Below, piece after piece: positions 1,346 through 20,585 of a stretch of DNA of 20,585 nucleotides (the first letter of the stretch is position 1; each line of letters starts with the position of its first letter). Made by a program: the position numbers and the translations under genes. The notes under the pieces were generated by a model, which was given only the letters and a program-made list of their open reading frames with translations, ran no database searches and was not told the origin of the DNA. The DNA lies in NCBI GenBank assembly GCA_002348825.1, contig DEBN01000032.1, positions 1 through 20,585 of the forward strand, written 5' to 3'. This stretch comes from Gammaproteobacteria bacterium UBA2955. Lineage in GTDB: Bacteria; Pseudomonadota; Gammaproteobacteria; Pseudomonadales; Azotimanducaceae.

Positions 1346-3049
1346 TTAGAGTTCTCGGACCAGTCGAATGCCGCGGTCGCCATTGCCGCCATGGGCGGCT
1401 TTGCGAAAGCTATTGGCGACCTCTTCCGGCCCTGAGTCCCATGACCCGCCGCGATGACCGTGGCTGCTGCAGCCCTGGCCTTGCCCTGTTTGAGTACCGT
1501 CGCGACTGCCGTTGGAATACTGGGGCAATCCGCAGTCCGCCACCCATTCCGACACGTTGCCATGGGTGTCGTACAACCCGAAGGCATTGGGTGCGTACTG
1601 TCCGCGCTTGCGCGGTATGCCTTGACCGTCATTGCAGTCTATTACTGTCCATGCGCGGTAGCGTCGTTTTACGGTTTGATCGGCAACATTCGCATACTCG
1701 CATAAGCGCTCTGGTGCATCGCCAAAAAAGTAGGCGGTTTGACTGCCTGCGCGGGCAACGTATTCCCATTCGGCCTCGGTAGGGAGCCGGTATCGCTCGC
1801 CGGTTTGGGCGCTCAACCAAGCCGCGTACTTTATGGCCTGCGGATGCGAAACGTGGACTACTGGACTGTCTTTGATCAGCTCCTCTGCGGTCAGGGCCGC
1901 AGCTAACTTTTTGGGCACCTTCGCACGCGTGGCTTTAGCGTACCGCAAAAACTCGGCAACACTGATCTCATACTTGCTGACTGCGAAGGGCTGAGTGAGT
2001 TGCACGGTACGGGTTGGCCGCTCCTGCCGGGCGCCGTTCGCGTTGCCCATAGTAAATTCGCCGGCGGGAACTATGACCATTGGTGGCGCGGTGCCGCCGA
2101 TCGCCAAGTCATCGATCAGTTCGGCACCGACTGCGGCTTCCAGCTTTTCCAGCTTGAAGGTCACAGAGCGGCCCGCCGGGGTTAAATTAAACGTTTGCGT
2201 CTGGGTTCGGTATCCCATGGCCCTTGCCGTTACCGATACGCTGCCGGCTGGCAGGGCCTTGGCAGCAGAGTAAATTCGTGTTTCGCCGCCGGCGGGGGTA
2301 ATGTCGATCAGACCATTTGCCGGCAGTACTTTGACGTTCAGCTTACCGTAACCCCGTGCCAGTGTGATTTGCTCAGTATTATCGCCATAGTCAATGTTGA
2401 TCCTTTTGCTCTGGGTAACATAGCCTGCACGACTCACCTGCAGTGAATATTCACCCATAGGCAACCGCACCCCGGGTTTGTATTTAATGTCGGTGCCGAT
2501 GATTTCCACCTCGGCGTTGGCTGGCCGCAGCCTAATCGTAAGACTGCCATGTGGGTCCATACTTAAATTCAGATTGACTTGCTGGGTGACCCCGGAGTTG
2601 AGCACCACGTCTGTTTTCGCGTCGCGCCGCTCGGCTTTGCCCATACGGATTCGATGCTTGCCTGAAGTCAGTGCCATCTGGGTGGGCGTGACCGCGGACA
2701 GACGTTCCCCGTTTACTTCGACCCATGCGCCTTTGGGGTTAGACATAAATTCGATGACGCCCTGCCCCAATTGCAGTTGGTAGTCTCGCTGCGGGTGGTC
2801 GCCAAGGCTAATGTCCAGTTGCTCGATCTTCGGTTGGTAGTGGCTGTGGGTCACCTCTACCTTGTAGCGACCGGGACTTAAGCGATGATCTTCGATGGGT
2901 GTCGTACCAATGAGCTGGCCATTAACCGACACGCGGGCATCGCCGGGCTGGCTGGTTATGCTGATGCTCGCCGTAAAGAATGTAAAATAGAGTGCGGCCG
3001 TTACCACCAGCAACAGCAGTCCGAGTATTACTTTTACTTTACGGCTCAA
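1346..3049 (-). CDS. PEGA-repeat protein with SUMF1/FGE-like domain
   Basis: A 567-residue predicted membrane-anchored extracytoplasmic protein. Basic residues (LSRKVKV) are followed by one hydrophobic helix (about 7-27), with no cleavage site evident. Four PEGA-like beta repeats follow at about 28-94, 98-165, 169-232 and 235-302; the first has the typical PGDARVSVNGQLIGTTP. A formylglycine-generating-enzyme/SUMF1-like domain fills about 322-567, with VPAGEFTMG, RLPTEAEWEYVARAG, FGLYDTHGNVSEWV and HRGGSW. Genuine FGEs carry paired cysteines just after GGSW; here that stretch is GGSWDSGPEEVANSFRK, so sulfatase-activating chemistry is unlikely and a binding or structural role is more plausible. 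A TTG start at 3049 is preferred because AAGGAG lies 6 nt upstream; the longer GTG start at 3094 has no such site. It is divergent from the CoA-binding gene. Function is unknown; PEGA domains are associated with surface-layer and envelope proteins. Confidence 0.88.
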   Translation of the reverse strand: MSRKVKVILGLLLLVVTAALYFTFFTASISITSQPGDARVSVNGQLIGTTPIEDHRLSPGRYKVEVTHSHYQPKIEQLDISLGDHPQRDYQLQLGQGVIEFMSNPKGAWVEVNGERLSAVTPTQMALTSGKHRIRMGKAERRDAKTDVVLNSGVTQQVNLNLSMDPHGSLTIRLRPANAEVEIIGTDIKYKPGVRLPMGEYSLQVSRAGYVTQSKRINIDYGDNTEQITLARGYGKLNVKVLPANGLIDITPAGGETRIYSAAKALPAGSVSVTARAMGYRTQTQTFNLTPAGRSVTFKLEKLEAAVGAELIDDLAIGGTAPPMVIVPAGEFTMGNANGARQERPTRTVQLTQPFAVSKYEISVAEFLRYAKATRAKVPKKLAAALTAEELIKDSPVVHVSHPQAIKYAAWLSAQTGERYRLPTEAEWEYVARAGSQTAYFFGDAPERLCEYANVADQTVKRRYRAWTVIDCNDGQGIPRKRGQYAPNAFGLYDTHGNVSEWVADCGLPQYSNGSRDGTQTGQGQGCSSHGHRGGSWDSGPEEVANSFRKAAHGGNGDRGIRLVREL

Positions 3050-3055
3050 TTTGAA

Positions 3056-3061
3056 CTCCTT
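3056..3061 (-). promoter_or_regulatory. Shine-Dalgarno site fixing a TTG start
   Basis: On the minus strand AAGGAG is followed by six bases (TTCAAA) and then TTG at 3049-3047, opening LSRKVKVILG. Spacing and strength are close to ideal, which argues for the TTG rather than the GTG 45 nt further upstream as the start of the PEGA/SUMF1 protein. It also gives a normal short basic N-terminus before the membrane anchor. Confidence 0.7.
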
Positions 3062-3129
3062 GCATGCAGGCCTTAGTGTGCATTGCCCAAACACGTTGAT
3101 GCAAAGTGCATTTGCACGAGAAAAAGCCT

Positions 3130-7228: not shown

Positions 7229-7492
7229 ATGGACAAGCAAGCTTACTGGAAAGCCAACATTCGACTGATGCTGGTGTTGCTGGCTATCTGGTTCACGGTG
7301 TCTTTCGGCTTTGGCATTCTGCTCGTTGAGCAACTTAATGAAATTGCGTTTTTTGGCTTCAAGTTTGGCTTCTGGTGGGCCCAGCAGGGGTCGATCTATG
7401 TGTTCATTGGCTTGATATTTTTCTACACCTACAAGATGAAAAAGATCGACCGCCAATTCGGCGTTTCTGACGACGATGAGGATGATGCCTAA
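7229..7492 (+). CDS. DUF4212 symporter small subunit
   Basis: An 87-residue membrane protein of the DUF4212 family, annotated as the small subunit of sodium/substrate symporters of the VC_2705 type. Two hydrophobic helices are visible (about 12-32 and 47-69), separated by a short loop, with a basic segment (YKMKKIDRQF) and an acidic tail (SDDDEDD). N-terminal YWKANIRLMLVLLAIWF and the FGFWWAQQGSIYVF segment are family marks. GAGGGG ends about 4 nt before the ATG. It is followed by the large symporter subunit with a 1-nt gap, the conserved arrangement for this family, so the two products very probably work together in the inner membrane. Confidence 0.93.
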   Translation: MDKQAYWKANIRLMLVLLAIWFTVSFGFGILLVEQLNEIAFFGFKFGFWWAQQGSIYVFIGLIFFYTYKMKKIDRQFGVSDDDEDDA

Positions 7493-7493
7493 T

Positions 7494-9266
7494 ATGGACG
7501 CCCAACAGTTGACTTATCTGTTCGTTTTTCTGTCGTTTTCGCTCTACATCGGCATTGCGATTTGGTCCCGCGCCGGTTCAACAAAAGAGTTTTATGTGGC
7601 CGGGGGTGGCGTCCATCCCATTGCCAACGGTATGGCGACGGCGGCCGACTGGATGAGTGCGGCGTCGTTTATTTCTATGGCCGGTATCATCGCGTTTATG
7701 GGATACGACGGCGCGGTCTATCTGATGGGCTGGACCGGCGGCTACGTTATTCTGGCTTTACTGCTCGCGCCTTATCTGCGCAAATTTGGCGAATTCACCG
7801 TACCGGACTTTATCGGTTCGCGCTATTACTCCACCGCCGCGCGAGTGGTTGCGGTGATTTGTCTGATTCTTATTTCCTTTACCTATGTTGCCGGGCAAAT
7901 GCGTGGGGTCGGCATTGTGTTCTCGCAGTTTCTCAACATCCCAATCTTTTGGGGTGTAATCGTCGGCATGGCGGTGGTTTTCATGTACGCGGTGTTGGGC
8001 GGCATGAAGGGCATAACGTATACCCAGGTGGCCCAATACTGCGTGTTGATTTTTGCCTACCTTGTACCTGCGATATTTATCTCGATGCTGATTACCGGCA
8101 TTCCGATTCCGCAAATCGGCCTTGGCGCCGAAGTCGCCGACGGCTCTGGTTTATCGGTGCTGCAAAAACTCGATAACACACTGGTCGAGTTAGGTTTCGC
8201 TCCATACACCGAGGGCATGAAGAGCAAGGTCGACGTCTTTGCCATCACTATGGCGTTGATGATTGGCACGGCCGGCCTGCCCCACGTCATTGTTCGTTTC
8301 TTTACCGTACCGAAAGTTTCAGACGCGCGTAAATCCGCGGGTTACGCGCTGCTATTTATCGCACTGCTGTACACCACCGCCCCGGCTGTAGGGGCGTTCG
8401 CGCGCCTGAACTTTGTTGACACCGTCCACAACACACAATACACCGAGGTCGCTGGCTGGTTTAAGAGTTGGGAAGACATCGGTCTTATTGGCTGGCAGGA
8501 CAAAAACAACGATGGGCGTATTCAATACCATCCCGGCGCAGCCTTCGACGGCAAACCGAGCTTCGATGACACACGCCGCATCGACGGCTCGCGCACAGTA
8601 ATCAATTCACCCACCGCGTCGAGCAATGAGGTTTACGTGGACCGCGACATCATGGTTCTGGCGAACCCGGAAATTGCTCGACTGCCGGCCTGGGTGATCG
8701 CGCTGGTGGCTGCCGGTAGTCTGGCCGCTGCGTTGTCTACCGCGGCTGGATTATTGCTCGTCATCTCCACCTCGATCTCTCACGACCTGTTAAAACAAAC
8801 CATGGCGAAGGGTCTTTCCGATCGTCAGGAACTATTTTACGCCCGCGTAGCTGCGGTAACAGCAATTTTAATTGCCGGCTATCTCGGCATCGACCCGCCC
8901 GGTTTTGTGGCGCAGGTGGTGGCATTCGCTTTTGGTCTGGCTGCAGCGTCGCTGTTCCCTGCCATTCTGCTCGGTATTTTTGATCGGCGCATGAACAAAG
9001 AAGGCGCGATCAGCGGTATGCTGGTGGGCTTAATCTTCTGCTTCAGCTACATTGTTTTCTTTAAATTTGTGGCGCCGGACTTGAATTCTGCCGACCACTG
9101 GTGGTTTGGCATTTCGCCCGAAGGCATCGGCTCACTCGGTGCCCTGCTGAATTTTTCGGTGGCGTTTACCGTCTCGCGGCTTACGCCGGATGTACCCGAG
9201 GACGTGCTGCGGCTGGTAGACAACATTCGCATTCCGAAGGGCGTCAGCGACCCAAAATCGCACTGA
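7494..9266 (+). CDS. Sodium:solute symporter, VC_2705 type
   Basis: A 590-residue SSS-family (solute:sodium symporter) protein with about 13 predicted membrane helices. Family signatures include STKEFYVAGGGVHPIANGMATAADWMS written in the first helices (about 29-55), the sodium-site helix region, and AGSLAAALSTAAGLLLVISTSISHDL in the eighth to ninth helix region (about 407-432). Members pair with DUF4212 proteins and are related to the acetate permease ActP, so a small carboxylate is a reasonable substrate guess, not an established one. A non-membrane insertion of about 90 residues (roughly 300-390) contains an EF-hand-like DKNNDGRI loop (336-343). The ATG at 7494, 1 nt after the DUF4212 stop, is preferred because it gives the normal N-terminus; ATGs at 7476 and 7485 are in frame. 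Translational coupling is likely. Confidence 0.92.
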   Translation: MDAQQLTYLFVFLSFSLYIGIAIWSRAGSTKEFYVAGGGVHPIANGMATAADWMSAASFISMAGIIAFMGYDGAVYLMGWTGGYVILALLLAPYLRKFGEFTVPDFIGSRYYSTAARVVAVICLILISFTYVAGQMRGVGIVFSQFLNIPIFWGVIVGMAVVFMYAVLGGMKGITYTQVAQYCVLIFAYLVPAIFISMLITGIPIPQIGLGAEVADGSGLSVLQKLDNTLVELGFAPYTEGMKSKVDVFAITMALMIGTAGLPHVIVRFFTVPKVSDARKSAGYALLFIALLYTTAPAVGAFARLNFVDTVHNTQYTEVAGWFKSWEDIGLIGWQDKNNDGRIQYHPGAAFDGKPSFDDTRRIDGSRTVINSPTASSNEVYVDRDIMVLANPEIARLPAWVIALVAAGSLAAALSTAAGLLLVISTSISHDLLKQTMAKGLSDRQELFYARVAAVTAILIAGYLGIDPPGFVAQVVAFAFGLAAASLFPAILLGIFDRRMNKEGAISGMLVGLIFCFSYIVFFKFVAPDLNSADHWWFGISPEGIGSLGALLNFSVAFTVSRLTPDVPEDVLRLVDNIRIPKGVSDPKSH

Positions 9267-10126: not shown

Positions 10127-12331
10127 TTAAGTACTGGCGTATTTTGCTTTCGCTTCGCGTCGACGGGCATGCAACACCGGCTCGGTATAACCGCTGGGTT
10201 GCTGCAACCCTTTAAATATCAGGTCGCAGGCCGCTTGAAACGCAACACTGTTGTCGAAATCCGGCGCCATTGGATGGTATGCATCATCGCCGGCATTCTG
10301 ATCGTCAACCACGGCGGCCATACGCTGCAAGGTTTCCATCACCTGCGCTTCGGAACAGATCCCATGATGCAACCAGTTACTGATGTGCTGACTGGAAATA
10401 CGTAGCGTGGCACGGTCTTCCATAAGACCCACATCATTAATGTCAGGCACTTTCGAACAACCCACGCCCTGATCAATCCAACGCACCACATAGCCAAGAA
10501 TGCCCTGGGCGTTATTGTCGAGTTCGCTTTGCACCTCGTCGGCCGCGAGGTTCTTACCGCCAAGCAACGGAATCTGCAAAATATCATCAACGCTGGCCGG
10601 CGCGCGAGCTTGCAATTCTTGTTGCACCGAGGCGACGCTGACTTCGTGATAATGCAGTGCGTGCAATGACGCTGCAGTTGGCGACGGCACCCATGCAGTG
10701 CTGGCGCCCGCTTTTGGGTGCATGGCTTTAACCGCTAACATCTCTGCCATCTCGTCAGGCTTGGGCCACATACCTTTACCGATCTGGCCCTTACCCCGGA
10801 AACCAGTGGCCAAACCAACGTCCACGTTGGAGTCTTCGTAGGCCTTGATCCACGTCTGGGCCTTGAGTTCCTCCTTCGCCAACACCGGCCCCGCTTGCAT
10901 GCTGGTATGGATCTCATCACCTGTGCGGTCTAGAAATCCTGTATTGATAAATACAATACGGTCTTTCGCTTCGGCGACACAGGCCTTGAGGTTAATGCTG
11001 GTGCGGCGCTCCTCATCCATAACGCCGATTTTTAAGGTGTTGCGCATTAAGCCCAACGTCTCTTCAATCTGGTCAAACAACGCTACGGCCAACGCAACTT
11101 CATCGGGCCCATGCATCTTCGGCTTTACGATGTAGACGCTGCCAGTGCGTGAGTTACGCAGCGGCCCGTCGCCCTGAATGTCGTGCATTGCCGAAAGAGC
11201 GGTTACAAATCCATCAAGAAAACCTTCTGGGACTTCATTACCTTCGCCATCGAGCACGGCATCTGTGGTCATGAGATGCCCGACGTTGCGTACCAACATT
11301 AGACTGCGGCCATGCATGGTCAGGGACTGGCCCTTGCTGTCGATATATTGGCGATCCGGATTGAGTTTACGCACCAAACGTTGACCGCCTTTCTCCATCA
11401 CTTCTTCTAAATCGCCTTTCATAAGGCCTAGCCAGTTGCCATAGACAATACATTTATCTTCGGCATCCACTGCGGCCACCGAGTCTTCGCAGTCTTGGAT
11501 AGTGGTTATGGCAGACTCAATTTCTACATCCTTGACTCCGGCAGGATGCACCGCTCCAACGGGATGGTTGGGGTCGATCAAAATGTCCAGATGCAGCCCA
11601 TTATGCTCAAGTAGGATACTGGTGGGTTCGGGCTCGCCAACAAACCCTACAAATTGCTCGGGATCAGCCAATGGCGTATTGCCACCGTCTTGCAAAATCG
11701 CACGCAGCTGGCGTGAACCGTCCTCGCCGGCGCCAATGCCATAGGTTACGACGTCACTGTGACTGCCCTGCGCAAGCGGCACCATGGCGTCTAACACCTC
11801 CGCTACTCGAGCGACCACAAGCTCGCCGCGCGCGGGGTTGTAACTGGAGCCTTTCTCCCTGCCCGGCGATTCCGGGATGATGTCGGTGCCGTAGAAGGCA
11901 TCGTACAAACTGCCCCAGCGCGCGTTCGCTGCGTTAAGCGCATAACGCGCGTTCATGACCGGCACTACCAACTGCGGGCCGGCAATTGTGGCGATCTCTG
12001 CGTCTACTTTTGTCGTGGTGATGGTCACCGAATCCGGCTCTGGCAAGAGATAGCCAATGTCCTGTAAAAACGCTTTGTATTCAACCGCGTCTACCGACCG
12101 GCCTTTGCGTTCGAGATGCCAATGGTCAATCTGTTGCTGTAGCTCGTCGCGTACCGCCAACAGCTTCTTGTTCACCGGCCCCAACTCGGCCAGACAGCGT
12201 TCGAAACCGGCCCAAAATTCATCTACGGATACGCCAGTACCTGGTAGTGCTTGATCACAGATCAGCGCGTCGAGCTCTGCAGCCACTTGCAAGCTGCCGC
12301 GTTGCACTCTGGAAACAGACTGTTTTGTCAT
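10127..12331 (-). CDS. glcB: Malate synthase G
   Basis: A 734-residue monomeric malate synthase of the G isoform, condensing glyoxylate with acetyl-CoA to malate in C2 assimilation (glyoxylate or glycolate use). Length matches the G form. Visible motifs: [20 protein letters not shown] (253-272), [18 protein letters not shown] (276-293), [19 protein letters not shown] (393-411, with the active-site Arg), [10 protein letters not shown] (436-445, metal-binding Glu region), [16 protein letters not shown] (461-476, metal Asp), [14 protein letters not shown] (518-531), [10 protein letters not shown] (622-631) and [18 protein letters not shown] (636-653, with the catalytic-base Asp D639). The ATG at 12331 has AGAGG 7 nt upstream. 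The SDR gene follows directly; the halohydrin dehalogenase-like gene diverges from it over 127 bp. No isocitrate lyase or glc oxidase gene is in the window. Confidence 0.97.
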
Positions 12332-12458: not shown

Positions 12459-13142
12459 ATGACCCAGCGTTTGCTAAATAAACGCGTTCTCATTACGCAA
12501 GCGGATGACTATATGGGGCCCGCAACAGCGGACCTGTTTACCGCCGAGGGCGCCGTCGTTACGACCGACACATCCGACCTACGCGCACCCGGGCGCTGTC
12601 GAGAGCTGGTTCAGGGCGCCGGGAATATCGACGTGCTGATCGCAAACCTCGCATCCGAGAACTTTAGCGGCATTGCAACCACTGAGCTCAGCGATGACGA
12701 CTGGCATTGCGCTTTCGACATTATGGTGCACCCGCTGCACCGCCTGTGCCGAGCCGTGCTGCCGCAGATGCTCGAGCGCGGCGCAGGTAAAATTGTCGTG
12801 TATGGCAGCGCGGCAGCACTACGCGGGATGCGCACTTTAGCGGCCTACAGCGCAGCGCGAGCGGCTCAAGTCGGCTATGTGCAGGCGCTCGGTGTCGAGG
12901 TCGCTCCAAGCAATGTTCAGGTTAATCTGATCGCGCAAAACTACGTGGAAAACCCCGTTTACTACCCAGAATCACTGCGAGAACAGGAGTCCTTCAAAAA
13001 ATCGCTACGCCGGCAGGTGCCGCTGGGGCGACTGGCCACCGCGAAAGAAGATGCAGAGTTTGCGCTATTTTTGGCGTCGGATAACAGCGACTTTTTTGTT
13101 GGCCAGGCCATCCCTTTTAGTGGCGGATGGGTACAGCGTTAA
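12459..13142 (+). CDS. Halohydrin dehalogenase-like protein (SDR fold)
   Basis: A 227-residue protein of SDR fold predicted to be a halohydrin dehalogenase: cofactor-free, reversibly converting a vicinal halohydrin to an epoxide plus halide, and opening epoxides with small anions. The cofactor motif TGxxxGxG is absent; in its place is T13-QADD-Y18-M-G20, the family signature T-x4-[FY]-x-G. The catalytic set is S117, Y130 and R134, spaced S-x12-Y-x3-R, with Arg replacing the SDR lysine. The segment NYVENPVYYPE (161-171) corresponds to the halide-site loop of HheC (NYLHSEDSPYFYP as I recall it). NNAG is also lost (NLAS, 63-66). Length fits known enzymes; it lacks the longer tail of HheC. The ATG at 12459 has GGAG 7 nt upstream; an earlier in-frame start at 12387 is not supported. 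GloA and GST genes follow. Subtype and real substrate are unknown; a plain degenerate SDR is the alternative. Confidence 0.85.
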   Translation: MTQRLLNKRVLITQADDYMGPATADLFTAEGAVVTTDTSDLRAPGRCRELVQGAGNIDVLIANLASENFSGIATTELSDDDWHCAFDIMVHPLHRLCRAVLPQMLERGAGKIVVYGSAAALRGMRTLAAYSAARAAQVGYVQALGVEVAPSNVQVNLIAQNYVENPVYYPESLREQESFKKSLRRQVPLGRLATAKEDAEFALFLASDNSDFFVGQAIPFSGGWVQR

Positions 13143-13267
13143 ACAGCCGCGGCAACTGGCGGCGTTGCATCGCTTAGCTGCGGCGCCAAGTATGAATCCA
13201 CAGCAGATGGGTAGCGAGGCGGCCGCGCTTACCGCTACACTGCGTGTTTTGTATCGGCAACGACGTT

Positions 13268-13687
13268 ATGCAATATCTGCACACTATGGTTCGAGTGTCC
13301 GATCTCGACGCTTCGCTCAAGTTTTACTGTGACGCGCTGGGACTTGAGGAGTTGCGACGCTTTGACAACGATCAGGGGCGTTTTACGCTGGTGTTTCTAT
13401 GCGCGCCCAACAACGAGAGCGCCCAAGTCGAACTGACCTACAACTGGGACCCTGAATCGTATTCGGGTGGTCGCAACTTCGGGCATCTCGCCTACCGTGT
13501 CGATGACATCTATGCCTGCTGCGAGCGTCTGGCCAGCAACAACGTTGTCATAAATCGACCGCCCCGCGATGGCCGCATGGCGTTTGTGCGATCACCCGAC
13601 GGTATTTCTATTGAGCTACTGCAAACCGGAGAGGCGCTGGCGCCTGCCGAACCATGGCTGAGCATGGAAAACATTGGTGAGTGGTAG
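13268..13687 (+). CDS. gloA: Glyoxalase I (lactoylglutathione lyase)
   Basis: A 139-residue VOC-fold enzyme isomerising the methylglyoxal-glutathione hemithioacetal to S-lactoylglutathione in the cytoplasm. It resembles E. coli GloA along its length: LHTMVRVSDLDASLKFY at the start, VELTYNW, FGHLAYRVDD and SPDGISIELLQ. The four metal ligands are in place: H5, E55, H73 and E116. The compact bacterial (Ni/Co-type) length and lack of the longer loops of the Zn-type enzymes suggest the nickel class (inference). The ATG at 13268 gives the exact GloA N-terminus; its ribosome binding site is poor, and an in-frame ATG at 13244 would add eight residues. It lies 125 bp after the halohydrin dehalogenase-like gene and 55 bp before a GST gene, all on one strand, linking the locus to glutathione-dependent detoxification. 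Confidence 0.9.
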   Translation: MQYLHTMVRVSDLDASLKFYCDALGLEELRRFDNDQGRFTLVFLCAPNNESAQVELTYNWDPESYSGGRNFGHLAYRVDDIYACCERLASNNVVINRPPRDGRMAFVRSPDGISIELLQTGEALAPAEPWLSMENIGEW

Positions 13688-13742: not shown

Positions 13743-14357
13743 ATGAAACTGTACAATTCTGTGGGACCTAATCCTCATGTGGTGCGCATGTATGCGGCGG
13801 AATGCGGCGTAGCGCTCGAACTTGAGGCGGTGGACCTGATGGCCGGCGCAAATCGACAGGCGCCGTATCTAGCCTTGAATCCGTCGGGTCAGATGCCGTG
13901 TTTAGAAATGAGTAACGGCGAAATTCTGGCCGAGATCACTGCGATCTGCGAATACCTCGACGAACAGGCAGATGGCGTTACCTTACTGGGCGACTCTGCC
14001 GAAGCGCGAGCCAATTCCCGCATGTGGGCCCGGCGCGTTGACCTGAATATTTGCGAACCGTTGACCAGCGGGTTCCGTTACAGCGAGGGACTGCCGTTGT
14101 TCAAAGACAGAATGATCACCATCCCCGAGGCCGCAGATGGCCTGAAACAGATCGCGCGCGAGAAGACGGCTTGGCTAAACGACCTCATGAATGATGGGCG
14201 GACCTTCATCGCCGGCGAACAAATCAGTTTAGCCGACGTGTTGCTTTACTGTTTCTTCGCATTCGCTGGCACGGTGGGTCAACCTTATGATCAGAACCTG
14301 ACCTATATTCACGCTTGGTATGAAAGGATGGCTGCGCGCCCGAGTGCGTCGGCGTAG
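13743..14357 (+). CDS. Glutathione S-transferase family protein
   Basis: A 204-residue cytosolic GST-like protein. The N-terminal thioredoxin-fold domain (1-80) has LNPSGQMPCLEM, with the cis-Pro P52 that contacts glutathione, and AEITAICEYL (63-72), where the usual glutathione-binding Ser after Glu is Ile-Thr instead (E64-I65-T66). The all-helical C-terminal domain (about 88-200) has the conserved capping-box segment GEQISLADVLLY, with D155. Candidate activators of the thiol near the N-terminus are N5 and S6; there is no Cys there. The family conjugates glutathione to electrophiles, including epoxides, but some members are dehalogenases, isomerases or non-catalytic. GGGGGA lies 6 nt before the ATG. 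It follows gloA by 55 bp on the same strand. Specific class not assigned. Confidence 0.88.
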   Translation: MKLYNSVGPNPHVVRMYAAECGVALELEAVDLMAGANRQAPYLALNPSGQMPCLEMSNGEILAEITAICEYLDEQADGVTLLGDSAEARANSRMWARRVDLNICEPLTSGFRYSEGLPLFKDRMITIPEAADGLKQIAREKTAWLNDLMNDGRTFIAGEQISLADVLLYCFFAFAGTVGQPYDQNLTYIHAWYERMAARPSASA

Positions 14358-14717: not shown

Positions 14718-15845
14718 ATGCGTTCAACCTATATTTGGGCCGTCACGATCGCGATTTTGCTGATCGCTTGGCTGCTGTCAGGCCAGATAAATTCGGCACC
14801 TCCGGTCATTGATCCCTCCATTGCGGAGCAGAATCGGATCAAAGAGGAAATCGGCAATGATGCCATCCCGACGCGGGTGCGTGCGGAGAGAATACGCGCG
14901 GTTGAGAAAATTCGTTACACCAACATTCGCGGCAAGACTCAAAATAAACGCACCGTCAACGCCCGAGCAGAGATCGTTGGCCGAATCGTCGAGCGCCGGG
15001 TCGAGCGCGGTGATGTCGTGGCAGCTAACGACGTGTTATGCGAGTTGTCTATAGAAGATAGGCAGACGGCGCTGGTTGAAGCGCAAGAACTGGTCAGCCA
15101 AGCGCGCATCGACTATCAAGGCGCTCTGCAGCTAGAAGCCCGGGGCTTTAATTCTGACAGCGCGATCGCGGCGACAAAGGCACGCCTAGCCAGCGCCGCT
15201 GCGCAACTGAAACGCCGCCAGCTGGATGTTGAGAAAATATTGGTGCGCGCGCCGTTTGCCGGTGTTGTTGAAGACGTACACGTGGAAATCGGTGATTACG
15301 TTAATCCAGGGCAGGGTTGTGCCACCATCGTCGACCTGAATCCGATGCTGATGGTTGGCCGCGTATCGGAAAAGGACGTGCTCGACCTCAGGCTTGGCGA
15401 ACTGGCGACTGGCGTGTTGGCCGACGGCCGCACAGTGGAAGGCCCCGTGACCTTCGTCGGCCAGCAAAGCAACCCGCAGACTCGAACCTATGCAGTCGAA
15501 ATTCAGCTGGATAACGCCGATGGCGCGCTACGTTCTGGGATCACCGCGGAGATTAAAATCCCCGTGGATCGAGTACTGGCACAGAAAATCAGTCCGGCTC
15601 TGTTTGCCCTAGACGACCTCGGCGCCATTGGCGTTAGAGTGTTGGACAACGACAACATCGTGCACTTCCACAACATAGAGATTATCAGCGAAAGCGCCGA
15701 CGGCGTCTGGGTAACTGGTCTGCCGAACGAAACTACCGTTATAACGGTTGGCCAAGAAATGGTCGTTGCCGGCGAGCGGGTTGATCCCGATTTGCGTCGC
15801 CGATTAACCAGCAGTGTGGCGCAGGCGTCAAACGCCGACACCTAA
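14718..15845 (+). CDS. RND efflux periplasmic adaptor (MFP/HlyD)
   Basis: A 375-residue membrane-fusion protein linking an RND pump to an outer-membrane channel. One N-terminal hydrophobic helix (about 6-22) anchors it; there is no lipobox Cys. Then come the first lipoyl half (about 76-112, with IVGRIVERRVERGDVVAAND), a short alpha-helical hairpin (about 112-172), the second lipoyl half (about 173-206, VRAPFAGVVEDVHVEIGDYV, which is diagnostic), a beta-barrel (about 207-283) and a membrane-proximal domain (about 284-360). The ATG at 14718 lacks a strong ribosome binding site. The permease ATG comes 7 nt after its stop, so the two form an operon. Possible promoter and operator lie immediately upstream. 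The substrate is unknown. Confidence 0.92.
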   Translation: MRSTYIWAVTIAILLIAWLLSGQINSAPPVIDPSIAEQNRIKEEIGNDAIPTRVRAERIRAVEKIRYTNIRGKTQNKRTVNARAEIVGRIVERRVERGDVVAANDVLCELSIEDRQTALVEAQELVSQARIDYQGALQLEARGFNSDSAIAATKARLASAAAQLKRRQLDVEKILVRAPFAGVVEDVHVEIGDYVNPGQGCATIVDLNPMLMVGRVSEKDVLDLRLGELATGVLADGRTVEGPVTFVGQQSNPQTRTYAVEIQLDNADGALRSGITAEIKIPVDRVLAQKISPALFALDDLGAIGVRVLDNDNIVHFHNIEIISESADGVWVTGLPNETTVITVGQEMVVAGERVDPDLRRRLTSSVAQASNADT

Positions 15846-15852
15846 ACCGAAT

Positions 15853-18800
15853 ATGTTTAAATTACTCGAAGCCGCGATCAGCCGGTCCCGAACTACCCTG
15901 CTGCTGCTGTTCATGATCTTATTGAGCGGTGTTCTTGCGCGCTGTTCAATTCCAGTGGAAGGCGATCCGGACATCAGCGTGCCGTTTTTTGTCATCACCG
16001 TGGTTCACGAAGGCATATCACCGGAAGACGCGGAACGGTTGTTGGTGATGCCGTTAGAGATCGAATTACGTCAGGTGGAGGGTGTAGAAGAAATCAACGC
16101 CTATGCCTCGGAAAATGCCGGCACAGTCATGGTGGAATTCGACCCTGACTTCGATCTCGATCAGGCGTTAATGGATACGCGCGAGGCGGTAGACCGTGCC
16201 AAGGTGGAGTTCCCCAGTACCGCAGAAGAACCAATCATCCAAGAACAATCTACGAGCGAGTTCCCGATCATTCAGGTTAACTTGGTCGGCGATGTGCCCG
16301 AGCGTATGTTGTACACCTTGGCGCTGGATTTACGCGACTTGATAGAGGCGCAACCAGATATCCTCTCTGCGAACTTACTGGGGTCGCGGGAAGAACTCTT
16401 AGAGGCGGTTATTAATCCAAAAGAACTCGAAACTTATGGACTGTCTTCTGAGCAAATCATCAATAGCATTGCGCGTAATAACCGACTGATCCCGGCAGGC
16501 AGTTTGGATAATGGGGAGGGCCGATTCGCGGTTAAAGTGCCCAGTGTCATCGAGAACTACAGCGACATCTACGATATCCCGGTGAAATCGGATGGCGATA
16601 CCGTCATAGCCCTCAGCGACGTGGCCGAAGTGCGGCGGACATTCAAGGACCGCAACCAATACTCGCGGGTGGACGGTAAAACCACCATAGCCCTCAACAT
16701 TGTGAAGCGCGCCAACAGCAACGTCATTCAGGCCATCGCCAACACCAAGGAGGTCACCGAAGCGTTCCGGCAAAAATTGCCGGCAAAGGTGGACATCTTC
16801 TATTCCACCGATCAAGCCCCGTACGCCAAGAGCCAAGTCGTGGAACTCGAGGGCAACATTCTTACCGCTCTGTGCCTAGTCATGGTCATCGTTGTCGCTG
16901 CGATGGGCATCCGCAGCGGCCTGATTGTCGGCTTTGGTATCCCAGCGTCTTTCCTGTTCTCTCTGATCTTTATCTACCTGTTGGGCTACTCGTTCAATTT
17001 CATGGTCATGTTCGGCATGCTGCTGGGCTTGGGCATGTTGATCGACGGCGCGATCGTTGTGACCGAATATGCGGATCGCAAAATGACCGAGGGTTTGGCC
17101 AGCAGAGACGCCTATTTGGCGGCCGCCAAACGCATGTTTTGGCCGGTTACCGCGTCGATCGCAACAACCTTGGCCGCGTTCTTGCCGCTGATGTTTTGGC
17201 CCGGCGTGTCGGGCAAATTCATGCGTTTCTTACCCGTTACTGTATTCACAGTACTTAGCGGCTCGCTGCTGTATGCACTGGGATTCGGGCCCGCTATCGG
17301 CGCGCTATTCGGGCGTGCCGGAAGCAAGGGTAAGAAAGCGCAAAGGACGCTGGAACTGTTAGAGCAGGGGGACCCGCGCCAACTGCGTTCGCTGACCGGT
17401 TTATATGCACGCGTACTTGGCTTTGCCGCGCGCTATGGCCTGGTCACTATGGCTGTTACCCTGGTCATTTTATTCACTACATTCTGGGCCTACGGTCAGT
17501 ACGGCAGCGGACTGATTTACTTTTCGCAAGCCGAATCGAAATTTGCCAGCGTGAGTATTCGCGCGCGTGGCAACCTGAGCGTCGACGAGACTAACGCCTT
17601 GGTCAAAGAGGTCGAGGAGCAGGTTTTAGAAATCGAGGGCATTGAGCATCTGAGTGTGCGGACCCAGTTATCTGGGCAGCCGAGCCGCAACGGCGGCAGT
17701 GACCGTATCGGAGGTATGTTTGTAGAGCTCTATGACCAACCCCAACGCCGCAATAGCGCAACAGAGATCCTCGAGGAAATACGTACGCGTTCGGCAAATA
17801 TTTCTGGCATTCAGGTCGAAGCCCGGGCAGAGGATATGGGGCCGCCAGTGGGCAAAGACATCAACATTGAATTGTCCTCCTACAACCGGCGTCTGCTGGA
17901 ACCCGCGGTAGCGAAAATCGTTAACTATATGCGCTCGGAGGTCGACGGTCTGCGCGATATTGACGACACTCGAGCGTTACCCGGTGTCGAGTTCAAGCTC
18001 AACGTCGATCGGGCTCAGGCGGCCATCTATGGCGCCGATGTGAGCCAAGTGGGCGTTGCCGTGCAGTTGGTAACCAACGGCGTAAAGGTCGGCGAATACC
18101 GACCGGACCGGGCCGATGACGGCGTGGATATCAGGGTGCGCTACCCAAGCGCTTCACGCGGCCTGCTGGCCTTGGATCAGCTGCGTATCAATACAGCGAG
18201 CGGCTTGGTACCGCTGTCGAACTTTGTAACTTTGGAACCCATTCCAAATGTGGACACCATTGAGCGGCACAACGGCGTTCCCATCAAAAAAGTATTGGCC
18301 GACGTCGCCCCGGGCATTCTTGCTGACGATAAGGTCAAGGAATTGCAAGCTTGGATTGATACCCAGGACTGGCCGCCTGAACTAAGTATTACGTTTAGGG
18401 GTGCAAATGAGGAGCAAGCCGAGTCTCTGGCTTTCGTTGGGGTCGCGTTTTCACTGTCGCTACTGCTGATGTTTGTGCTGTTGGTGACGCAGTTTAATAG
18501 CTTCTATCAAAGCACGCTGATTCTGTTTGCGGTGATCTTATCCACCGCTGGGGTGCTGCTTGGTTTGTTAATTACGGGTAACCCATTCAGTGCAATTTTA
18601 ACCGGTGTGGGCGTCGTTGCTCTGGCCGGGATCGTGGTCAATAACAACATTGTGCTGATCGACACATATAACAAATTGCGCGCCGAACAGCCGAATCAAG
18701 ACTACATCCAATTAATTGTTCGCACCGGCGCACAGCGGTTGCGACCTGTGATGCTAACCACTGTAACCACAGTTTTTGGGCTTTTGCCTCTGGCCAGCAA

Positions 18801-19014
18801 TCTCAGTATCGACGTAATCAACCGCACCATCGTTCAGGGCGGACAGTTGTCCACTCTTTGGGTGCCTCTGTCTCAGGCCATCGTCTCTGGATTGACCTTT
18901 GCGACATTACTCACACTGGTTACGACTCCGGCCATGCTCGCGATACCGCACCAGCTTAAGTCTGTGTGGGCGCGTTTGCCGCTGCCGACAGCACTACAGC
19001 GCGCCAAGGCTTAG
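15853..19014 (+). CDS. RND efflux permease (AcrB-superfamily)
   Basis: A 1053-residue inner-membrane proton/substrate antiporter of RND type. TM1 is near 13-32, followed by a large periplasmic porter domain, TM2-6 (about 335-490), a second porter domain and TM7-12 (about 860-1035). TM4 carries GMLIDGAIVVTEYADR: the first proton-relay Asp (D398, AcrB D407) is kept, but the second (AcrB D408) is Gly (G399). TM10 reads GIVVNNNIVLID, so AcrB K940 is Asn (N930). These changes are seen in a broad group of RND pumps distinct from AcrB itself; the cargo is unknown. The ATG at 15853, 7 nt after the adaptor stop, gives the normal N-terminus (MFKLLEAAISRSRTTLLLL); a GTG at 15814 would overlap the adaptor. 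No outer-membrane factor or regulator gene is in the window. Its TAG overlaps the stop of the convergent lyase gene. Confidence 0.94.
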   Translation: MFKLLEAAISRSRTTLLLLFMILLSGVLARCSIPVEGDPDISVPFFVITVVHEGISPEDAERLLVMPLEIELRQVEGVEEINAYASENAGTVMVEFDPDFDLDQALMDTREAVDRAKVEFPSTAEEPIIQEQSTSEFPIIQVNLVGDVPERMLYTLALDLRDLIEAQPDILSANLLGSREELLEAVINPKELETYGLSSEQIINSIARNNRLIPAGSLDNGEGRFAVKVPSVIENYSDIYDIPVKSDGDTVIALSDVAEVRRTFKDRNQYSRVDGKTTIALNIVKRANSNVIQAIANTKEVTEAFRQKLPAKVDIFYSTDQAPYAKSQVVELEGNILTALCLVMVIVVAAMGIRSGLIVGFGIPASFLFSLIFIYLLGYSFNFMVMFGMLLGLGMLIDGAIVVTEYADRKMTEGLASRDAYLAAAKRMFWPVTASIATTLAAFLPLMFWPGVSGKFMRFLPVTVFTVLSGSLLYALGFGPAIGALFGRAGSKGKKAQRTLELLEQGDPRQLRSLTGLYARVLGFAARYGLVTMAVTLVILFTTFWAYGQYGSGLIYFSQAESKFASVSIRARGNLSVDETNALVKEVEEQVLEIEGIEHLSVRTQLSGQPSRNGGSDRIGGMFVELYDQPQRRNSATEILEEIRTRSANISGIQVEARAEDMGPPVGKDINIELSSYNRRLLEPAVAKIVNYMRSEVDGLRDIDDTRALPGVEFKLNVDRAQAAIYGADVSQVGVAVQLVTNGVKVGEYRPDRADDGVDIRVRYPSASRGLLALDQLRINTASGLVPLSNFVTLEPIPNVDTIERHNGVPIKKVLADVAPGILADDKVKELQAWIDTQDWPPELSITFRGANEEQAESLAFVGVAFSLSLLLMFVLLVTQFNSFYQSTLILFAVILSTAGVLLGLLITGNPFSAILTGVGVVALAGIVVNNNIVLIDTYNKLRAEQPNQDYIQLIVRTGAQRLRPVMLTTVTTVFGLLPLASNLSIDVINRTIVQGGQLSTLWVPLSQAIVSGLTFATLLTLVTTPAMLAIPHQLKSVWARLPLPTALQRAKA

Positions 19015-19862: not shown

Positions 19863-20021
19863 AACTGACCTCCGGGTTGTTGCAAAAGGTCATTCTAATC
19901 CGGATCAGGCTTGCAATGAGCTGTGTTAGCATCGTCACATACCGTGATCTTCCACATTCGCACCGGCCTTCAGTACAAACGCCACAGCGACTCTGGAATG
20001 CTTAATTTTTGGGAGAGGATT

Positions 20022-20585
20022 TTGAGCACGCAAACAACCGCGCAAACCACATTCGACCTCACCGACCGGGTAATAGCGATTACCGGTGCGTCATCCGGAT
20101 TCGGCTACCATTTCGCCGGTGTGCTCGCCGCCCAAGGTGCGAAAGTGGTATTGGGCGCGCGACGCCTAGAGAAACTGCAAGCCTGTGTCGACGAAATCAA
20201 GGACAACGGCGGCGAGGCACTGGCTGTACCGCTCGACGTCCGCAACAAAGACAGTATTGCCGGCTTTCTGGACAGCGCCTACGAACACTATGGTCGCTGT
20301 GATGTGGTTATTAATAACGCCGGTGTTGAGGCCGGCGCAAAGACCTATCACACCATCGACGAAGACGATTGGGACTTTGTCCTCGACACCAACTTAAAGT
20401 CGGCGTGGCTGGTCTCAAAGTTTTATACCGACCGGGTCGTGGCGCACAAACAAGGTGATGGCAACATTATAATGGTGTCATCTATTACCGATTCGCGCAC
20501 GATTAAAGGCCAATTCCCCTACGCTGTGTCAAAGGGCGGCATGACCCGCATGACCGAGGTGATGTCGTTAGAGGCCGCGAAATAC
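20022..20585 (+). CDS. SDR-family oxidoreductase, partial (3' end missing)
   Basis: The first 188 residues of a classical short-chain dehydrogenase; the reading frame is open to the window end. The cofactor motif TGASSGFG, followed by YHFAGVLAAQGAKVV, lies near 22-44, and D-V-R at the end of beta-3 (LDVRN, about 75), NNAG (about 94-97) and the catalytic segment VSSITDSRTIKGQFPYAVSKGG (about 154-175) with Ser, Tyr and Lys are all intact. Arg residues after beta-2 (GARRLEKL) suggest NADP(H) preference (inference). The start is TTG at 20022: GGGAG lies about 7 nt upstream (20011-20015), and no ATG or GTG upstream gives a better N-terminus. Substrate unknown. The divergent CoA lyase is 159 bp away, so a shared acyl-CoA pathway is possible but not shown. 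Contrast with the SDR-fold halohydrin dehalogenase-like protein, which has lost these motifs. Confidence 0.9.
   Translation, partial: MSTQTTAQTTFDLTDRVIAITGASSGFGYHFAGVLAAQGAKVVLGARRLEKLQACVDEIKDNGGEALAVPLDVRNKDSIAGFLDSAYEHYGRCDVVINNAGVEAGAKTYHTIDEDDWDFVLDTNLKSAWLVSKFYTDRVVAHKQGDGNIIMVSSITDSRTIKGQFPYAVSKGGMTRMTEVMSLEAAKY

Follow-up and report, generated by a model that had tools for sequence, protein, structure and literature searches.

We examined a stretch of 20,585 nucleotides from Gammaproteobacteria bacterium UBA2955 (contig DEBN01000032.1, forward strand, family Azotimanducaceae), referred to below as the window, with a focus on a gene for a putative halohydrin dehalogenase (HHDH) at 12459..13142 on the + strand. 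The open reading frame begins with an ATG at 12459, its stop codon ends at 13142, and it specifies a product of 227 amino acids. We consider it highly likely that 12459-13142 encodes an HHDH, though generic annotation would call it a short-chain dehydrogenase. Downstream, probably just across the end of the contig, lies a gene for an epoxide hydrolase (EH).

Sequence motifs and family placement of the probable dehalogenase

HHDHs are described as sharing two motifs, T-x4-[FY]-x-G in the N-terminal part (motif 1) and S-x12-Y-x3-R, which holds the catalytic triad (motif 2) (PMC11976700 and PMC4989007). Each of these was identified in the 227-residue product at the residues given in a preliminary description of the DNA, as T13-QADD-Y18-M-G20 and S117...Y130-SAA-R134, respectively. 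That description had also remarked that the cofactor motif and the YxxxK lysine of short-chain dehydrogenases/reductases (SDRs) are missing, and pattern scans bear this out: neither the glycine-rich nucleotide motif T-G/A-x3-G/A-x-G nor the triad S-x10-14-Y-x3-K was found in the window's HHDH, in which R134 replaces the lysine. For comparison the scan was run on eight SDRs that the same genome encodes, one in the window and seven elsewhere (one of them, L002, is shortened at its N-terminus). Seven of the eight carry the first SDR motif and seven the second, and the HHDH motifs occur in none of them. The SDR patterns are loose, and they also match by chance in HheC and two further HHDH rows.

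The matches to the HHDH motifs do not look like products of chance, since motif 2 is present in all 121 proteins compared (the window's protein and 120 listed of 2704 homologues) and motif 1 lies within the first 45 residues of 117 of them. Of the four proteins that lack motif 1 in that stretch, one carries S in place of T and another V in place of G; in the remaining two, motif 2 is shifted by 26 and 54 residues, from which it would follow that an N-terminal extension has probably moved motif 1 beyond the part searched. In an alignment of 38 rows, each at least 64% identical to the window's protein, G20, S117, Y130, R134, N161 and Y162 show no variation, and conservation of T13 is 90% or higher. 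The last two invariant residues open a loop (N161-P170) that the preliminary description had likened to the halide-site region of HheC. At the level of alignment this holds: the NYVENPVYYPE loop lines up with the NYLHSEDSPYFYPTE stretch of HheC (QNYVENPVYYPE in the window against PNYLHSEDSPYFYPTE in HheC), which we take to be part of the HheC halide site.

Annotation resources place the protein no more closely than its superfamily. The Pfam match is to the SDR superfamily only, the best 25 of the 190 NCBIfam families matching the product all score below their own cut-offs, and homologues carry database names such as 2-keto-3-deoxy-L-fuconate dehydrogenase or SDR family oxidoreductase. Classical SDRs, for example L-2-keto-3-deoxyfuconate 4-dehydrogenase (PDB 8y11), indeed share superfamily and fold with the window's HHDH, but they have the nucleotide and YxxxK motifs that it lacks and are separated from it in a tree. 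We reject an ordinary SDR identity on the strength of motifs and tree.

Among solved structures, the nearest relatives of the window's HHDH are HheB of Corynebacterium sp. N-1074 (PDB 4zd6, type B; 54.5% identity), HheD8 (PDB 8xxb, type D; 51.8%) and HheD2 (PDB 7b73, type D; 49.8%), and the four best matches in a structure search are all HHDHs. Sequence search, tree and structure search agree on HheB and HheD relatives as the closest; that HheC falls outside the best sequence and structure matches listed is evidence neither way. In a tree that left out types A, E, F and G, the window's HHDH stands with HheB and HheD2/HheD8 and is split from the eight same-genome SDRs at 100/99, and so does not fall among NAD(P)-dependent SDRs, the placement that the preliminary description had named as speaking against its proposal. 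Motifs, tree, and sequence and structure searches are thus in accord with that proposal of an HHDH among SDR proteins.

Sequence comparison confines the subtype to the family's B/D side. Types B and D both stay candidates, because the grouping of the window's clade with HheB, supported at 95/87 with outgroups, drops to 73/55 without them. HheD2 and HheD8 form a branch of their own (100/100) beside the window's clade, and the window's HHDH is not nested there. Published type D members are 57-95% identical to verified D enzymes (PMC4989007), and the window's protein reaches 49.8% and 51.8% with the two D enzymes compared. The earlier view that the subtype cannot be told from sequence therefore stands for B versus D, and gives way where the family as a whole is concerned. 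HheB has HW in the loop at the place of the NY of the window's clade. HheC of Agrobacterium radiobacter AD1 (PDB 1pwx) has the same motifs as the window's HHDH and, presumably, the same mechanism, but is only 24.5% identical to it and has a C-terminal extension (PMC4989007) that the window's protein is without.

Distribution and linkage to an epoxide hydrolase gene

The preliminary description called the enzyme family rare, but in this lineage it is not: 124 of the 206 genomes of the bacterial family have an HHDH match at E <= 1e-50, one each, and these represent 27 of 37 genera. The match identities fall into two groups, W (62-100% identity to the window's protein; 86 genomes) and group 2 (45-56%; 38 genomes), the latter forming a clade of its own, separate from type D, that may be a published HHDH subtype. 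Group 2 proteins (L118-L131, same family) have SAxxLRG-type motif 2 stretches with YCAAR or YCSAR. Within the window's genus the gene was found in 35 of 40 genomes; the five misses are 58-75% complete, and every one of the 32 genomes more than 75% complete has it. Since each genome has one copy and the misses are all at most 75% complete, the gene looks like a core gene of the genus and not a sporadic catabolic acquisition. A smaller sample searched at E <= 1e-40 gave matches in 24 of 25 same-genus genomes and in 0 of 13 genomes from the order's other families.

Counts of relatives, here and below, refer to 80 of 109 loci mapped by tblastn, with the HHDH placed in 80/80; counts of neighbours use only those with a long enough flank. 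The named relatives are mostly titled as Gammaproteobacteria or Pseudomonadales metagenome-assembled genomes (MAGs), with a few from Acidimicrobiales, Deltaproteobacteria or Poribacteria. Several bear marine names (North Sea, HTCC2089, OM182, ALOHA), from which we infer that the window's organism is marine. Two records titled Klebsiella pneumoniae MAG (L057 and L063) hold HHDHs 70-71% identical to the window's; these titles look wrong.

The window ends within an SDR gene (19923..20585, + strand) that adjoins the EH gene in relatives. The last 24 bases of the window (20562..20585) recur, base for base, where the reversed contig G000:C41 (L160) of the same genome begins, and this contig carries the missing end of the SDR followed by the EH gene (C41:9710-10849, minus strand). 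Five close relatives (L150, L151, L152, L167 and L168) have the same gene order unbroken on one stretch each. Given the 24 identical bases and the order across the break in these relatives, the two contigs are probably neighbours in the genome, which places the EH gene, by extrapolation across the contig break, ~7.7 kb after the HHDH gene. The EH protein matches the Pfam EHN epoxide hydrolase family and a solved bacterial epoxide hydrolase (5f4z, E 1.3e-111); it contains a GGDWG stretch, common to 37 of 37 EH rows compared, that presumably holds the nucleophile. Beyond the EH gene, on the opposite strand, lie genes for a TauD-type dioxygenase and an MFS-like transporter. In relatives as in the window's genome, the TauD-type gene (L160:1303-2208, +) and the EH gene converge, and a second TauD-type gene occurs near the HHDH-EH pair in L074 and L079-L083.

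Among the matches listed, an EH is present in at least 81 of the 86 W-type genomes and on the HHDH contig in at least 35. It lies on the same strand no more than 15 kb downstream of the HHDH in at least 30, compared with a chance expectation of ~0.27% that assumes genomes of 3.5 Mb and uniform placement, and within 2 kb of the HHDH in at least 11. Ten of 68 relatives have it at most 2 kb downstream. In genera g41, g49 and g50 the two genes are 59-1817 bases apart on the same strand and the rest of the neighbourhood differs. The link extends to group 2, where an EH gene is found 5.4-7.4 kb upstream of the HHDH, on the same strand, in at least 5 of 38 genomes.

We compared the hydrolases in a midpoint-rooted tree of 37 rows, mostly picked for linkage and not covering all EHs of the family. 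Ten HHDH-adjacent EHs (100/98) and a clade of 16 rows (100/99) unite at 98/91. This second clade comprises 11 rows labelled as linked, the window genome's own included, and five labelled as other: L146 duplicates a linked row, L149 lies 26 kb from the HHDH on the same contig, and L159, L162 and L164 are on stretches with the neighbouring SDR and without an HHDH. The remaining 11 rows (9 distinct) fall outside both clades, one of them (L120) being the EH upstream of a group 2 HHDH. Because the adjacent and the linked EHs group together, one EH lineage accompanies the W-type HHDH in two layouts. A layout that changes as the link is kept argues for function, and inherited gene order explains part of the pattern.

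Neighbouring genes

Upstream of the HHDH gene and divergent from it, with 127 bases between, is a gene for malate synthase G (10127..12331, - strand), a conserved neighbour found divergent within 1.5 kb of the HHDH in 22 of 76 relatives; a divergent ABC permease gene lies within 5 kb in 20 of 76. We claim no role for the malate synthase. On the downstream side the HHDH gene is followed by one for a glyoxalase I-like VOC protein (13268..13687, +), whose ATG at 13268 was picked by eye in place of the GTG at 13244 in the open reading frame list. This protein matches Pfam Glyoxalase, scores 112.2 bits against TIGR00068, just below the cut-off of 120, and matches lactoylglutathione lyase 6bnn (E 7.7e-35); aligned by eye with lactoylglutathione lyases, it agrees with them at what we take to be the metal-ligand positions of glyoxalase I. 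Next come genes for a glutathione S-transferase (GST) family protein (13743..14357, +) and for an RND efflux pump, to which we likewise assign no role: a periplasmic adaptor (14718..15845, +; TIGR01730 above cut-off) and an AcrB-family pump protein (15814..19014, +; Pfam ACR_tran, E 1.1e-151).

These genes are conserved neighbours in part of the relatives, with the VOC gene at most 5 kb downstream of the HHDH in 27 of 58, the GST gene at most 5.5 kb downstream in 25 of 58, and the RND adaptor gene no more than 7.9 kb away in 29 of 55. Matches to a PQQ query, which overlaps the HHDH itself and masked it at four loci (L055, L072, L078, L086), were disregarded. The VOC, GST and RND genes remain together where HpaB-like and M48 genes separate them from the HHDH. 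We do not claim the VOC-GST-RND set as an HHDH operon, as it persists away from the HHDH and a promoter and terminator scan is at shuffle level. That the VOC protein and the GST belong to the HHDH pathway is something we only infer.

In 11 of 75 relatives (L019, L022, L023, L028, L031, L033, L038, L041, L049, L051 and L052) the HHDH gene is directly followed, within 300 bases and on its own strand, by a gene for an HpaB-like flavoprotein. The closest solved relatives of its product are vinylacetyl-CoA isomerase and 4-hydroxyphenylacetate hydroxylases, from which we draw no hint as to substrate. Elsewhere in the window, a gene at 1346-3094 (-) encodes a protein that combines three PEGA stretches with an FGE-sulfatase (formylglycine-generating enzyme type) domain at its C-terminus, and 7229-9266 (+) encodes a DUF4212 small protein and then a VC_2705-type sodium/solute symporter, with a 17-base overlap.

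Proposed role and competing explanations

We think it fairly likely that the gene specifies a cofactor-independent HHDH of the HheB/HheD side that makes epoxides from natural halohydrins, and that the EH encoded ~7.7 kb downstream hydrolyses them. By homology with HheC, S117 would hold the substrate hydroxyl and Y130, its pKa lowered by R134, would take the proton; the substrate oxygen would then displace the neighbouring halide to form an epoxide with no nucleotide cofactor, the halide leaving into a pocket that motif 1 and the N161-Y162 loop would enclose. In reverse, the enzyme would open epoxides with halide or another small anion. A reversible Ser-Tyr-Arg halide displacement that accepts other anions is the HHDH mechanism set out in PMC4989007. 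In the cell, the most likely task would be the conversion of natural vicinal halohydrins to epoxides as a standing, vertically inherited function, with the EH turning epoxide to diol; it is the linked EH that suggests the direction from halohydrin through epoxide to diol. The adjoining GST would be a possible second outlet for the epoxide, and the SDR beside the EH may oxidise the diol. The HHDH activity, its direction, the kind of substrate, and the parts given to GST and SDR are all predicted.

We consider it rather unlikely that, in an enzyme of HHDH type, the physiological reaction is the opening of epoxides with halide, nitrite or a different anion, or other cofactor-free chemistry on epoxides or alcohols, with dehalogenation a side activity. 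HHDHs work in both directions and also take azide, cyanide and nitrite, and the review reporting this states that other physiological functions cannot be excluded (PMC4989007). The authors of the HheC work regard their own test substrates as probably not the natural ones (PMC11976700), and an enzyme of pollutant degradation is not usually a core gene of a genus. The linked EH, in contrast, suits the consumption of an epoxide made by the HHDH, and suits less well two enzymes competing for one epoxide.

A similarly doubtful alternative accepts the HHDH identity and holds that EH, GST and VOC protein are functionally unrelated to it, being nearby only through inherited gene order. Several observations weigh in its favour or against an HHDH-EH pathway. 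Most of the EH links at 7-26 kb fall inside one genus, where linkage is partly plain inheritance of gene order, and RND, CitE-like and SDR genes lie between HHDH and EH. The link is missing from the single-contig genomes G201 and G202, whose EH genes lie ~1.5 Mb from the HHDH, and among the matches listed 51 of the 86 W-type genomes have no EH on the HHDH contig, many of these contigs being small. No common operon was detected in the scan, which gave 1 promoter-like site against a shuffle mean of 1.4 and 4 terminator-like sites against 3.3, and the tie of the VOC-GST-RND genes to the HHDH may be incidental, because the set stays together with other genes between it and the HHDH. On the side of the enzyme itself, the loop of HheB, with its HW for NY, speaks against our main reading. 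What counts against unrelated neighbours is that the EHs of g41, g49 and g50 are close to the HHDH, on the same strand, in otherwise different surroundings and nevertheless group with the linked EHs of the window's genus, and that group 2 HHDHs have an EH upstream as well. Finally, it is very improbable that the protein is an SDR that depends on NAD(P) and has degenerate motifs, or an SDR relative with neither cofactor nor dehalogenase activity, given that both SDR motifs are absent, both HHDH motifs are conserved across relatives, and the protein stands apart from SDRs in the tree and is 50-55% identical to proteins solved as HHDHs.

In its wider form the pathway proposal is tentative, and we hold it to be possible, though somewhat less than an even chance, that an old, vertically inherited HHDH lineage, a linked EH and perhaps glutathione-dependent neighbours make up a native halohydrin-to-epoxide-to-diol pathway in uncultured, largely marine gammaproteobacteria. 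The natural substrates might then be chloro- and bromohydrins such as those that algae or haloperoxidases produce. If true, HHDHs would have a core part in the cycling of carbon and halogens in the sea, and would not serve chiefly in the degradation of pollutants. HheB, by comparison, was obtained from a strain that had been enriched on toxic compounds (PMC4989007), whereas the window's HHDH belongs to a lineage in which the gene appears to be core. HheC also has an EH gene in its neighbourhood, but in an operon (PMC11976700); for the window's HHDH the distance is put at ~7.7 kb, and in other genera the two genes adjoin.

Our search of the open-access literature, with subscription journals mostly outside its scope, found no paper that deals with the surroundings of HHDH genes in marine genomes; HHDHs of this clade may all the same have been described before. 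As the window's enzyme is a further member of a known family, its interest lies in its natural role, a question made testable by a gene that is constant in the more complete genomes of the genus and repeatedly near an EH. What this lineage adds is a recurrent HHDH-EH neighbourhood in one gammaproteobacterial family, and the W group is in addition a set of candidate biocatalysts.
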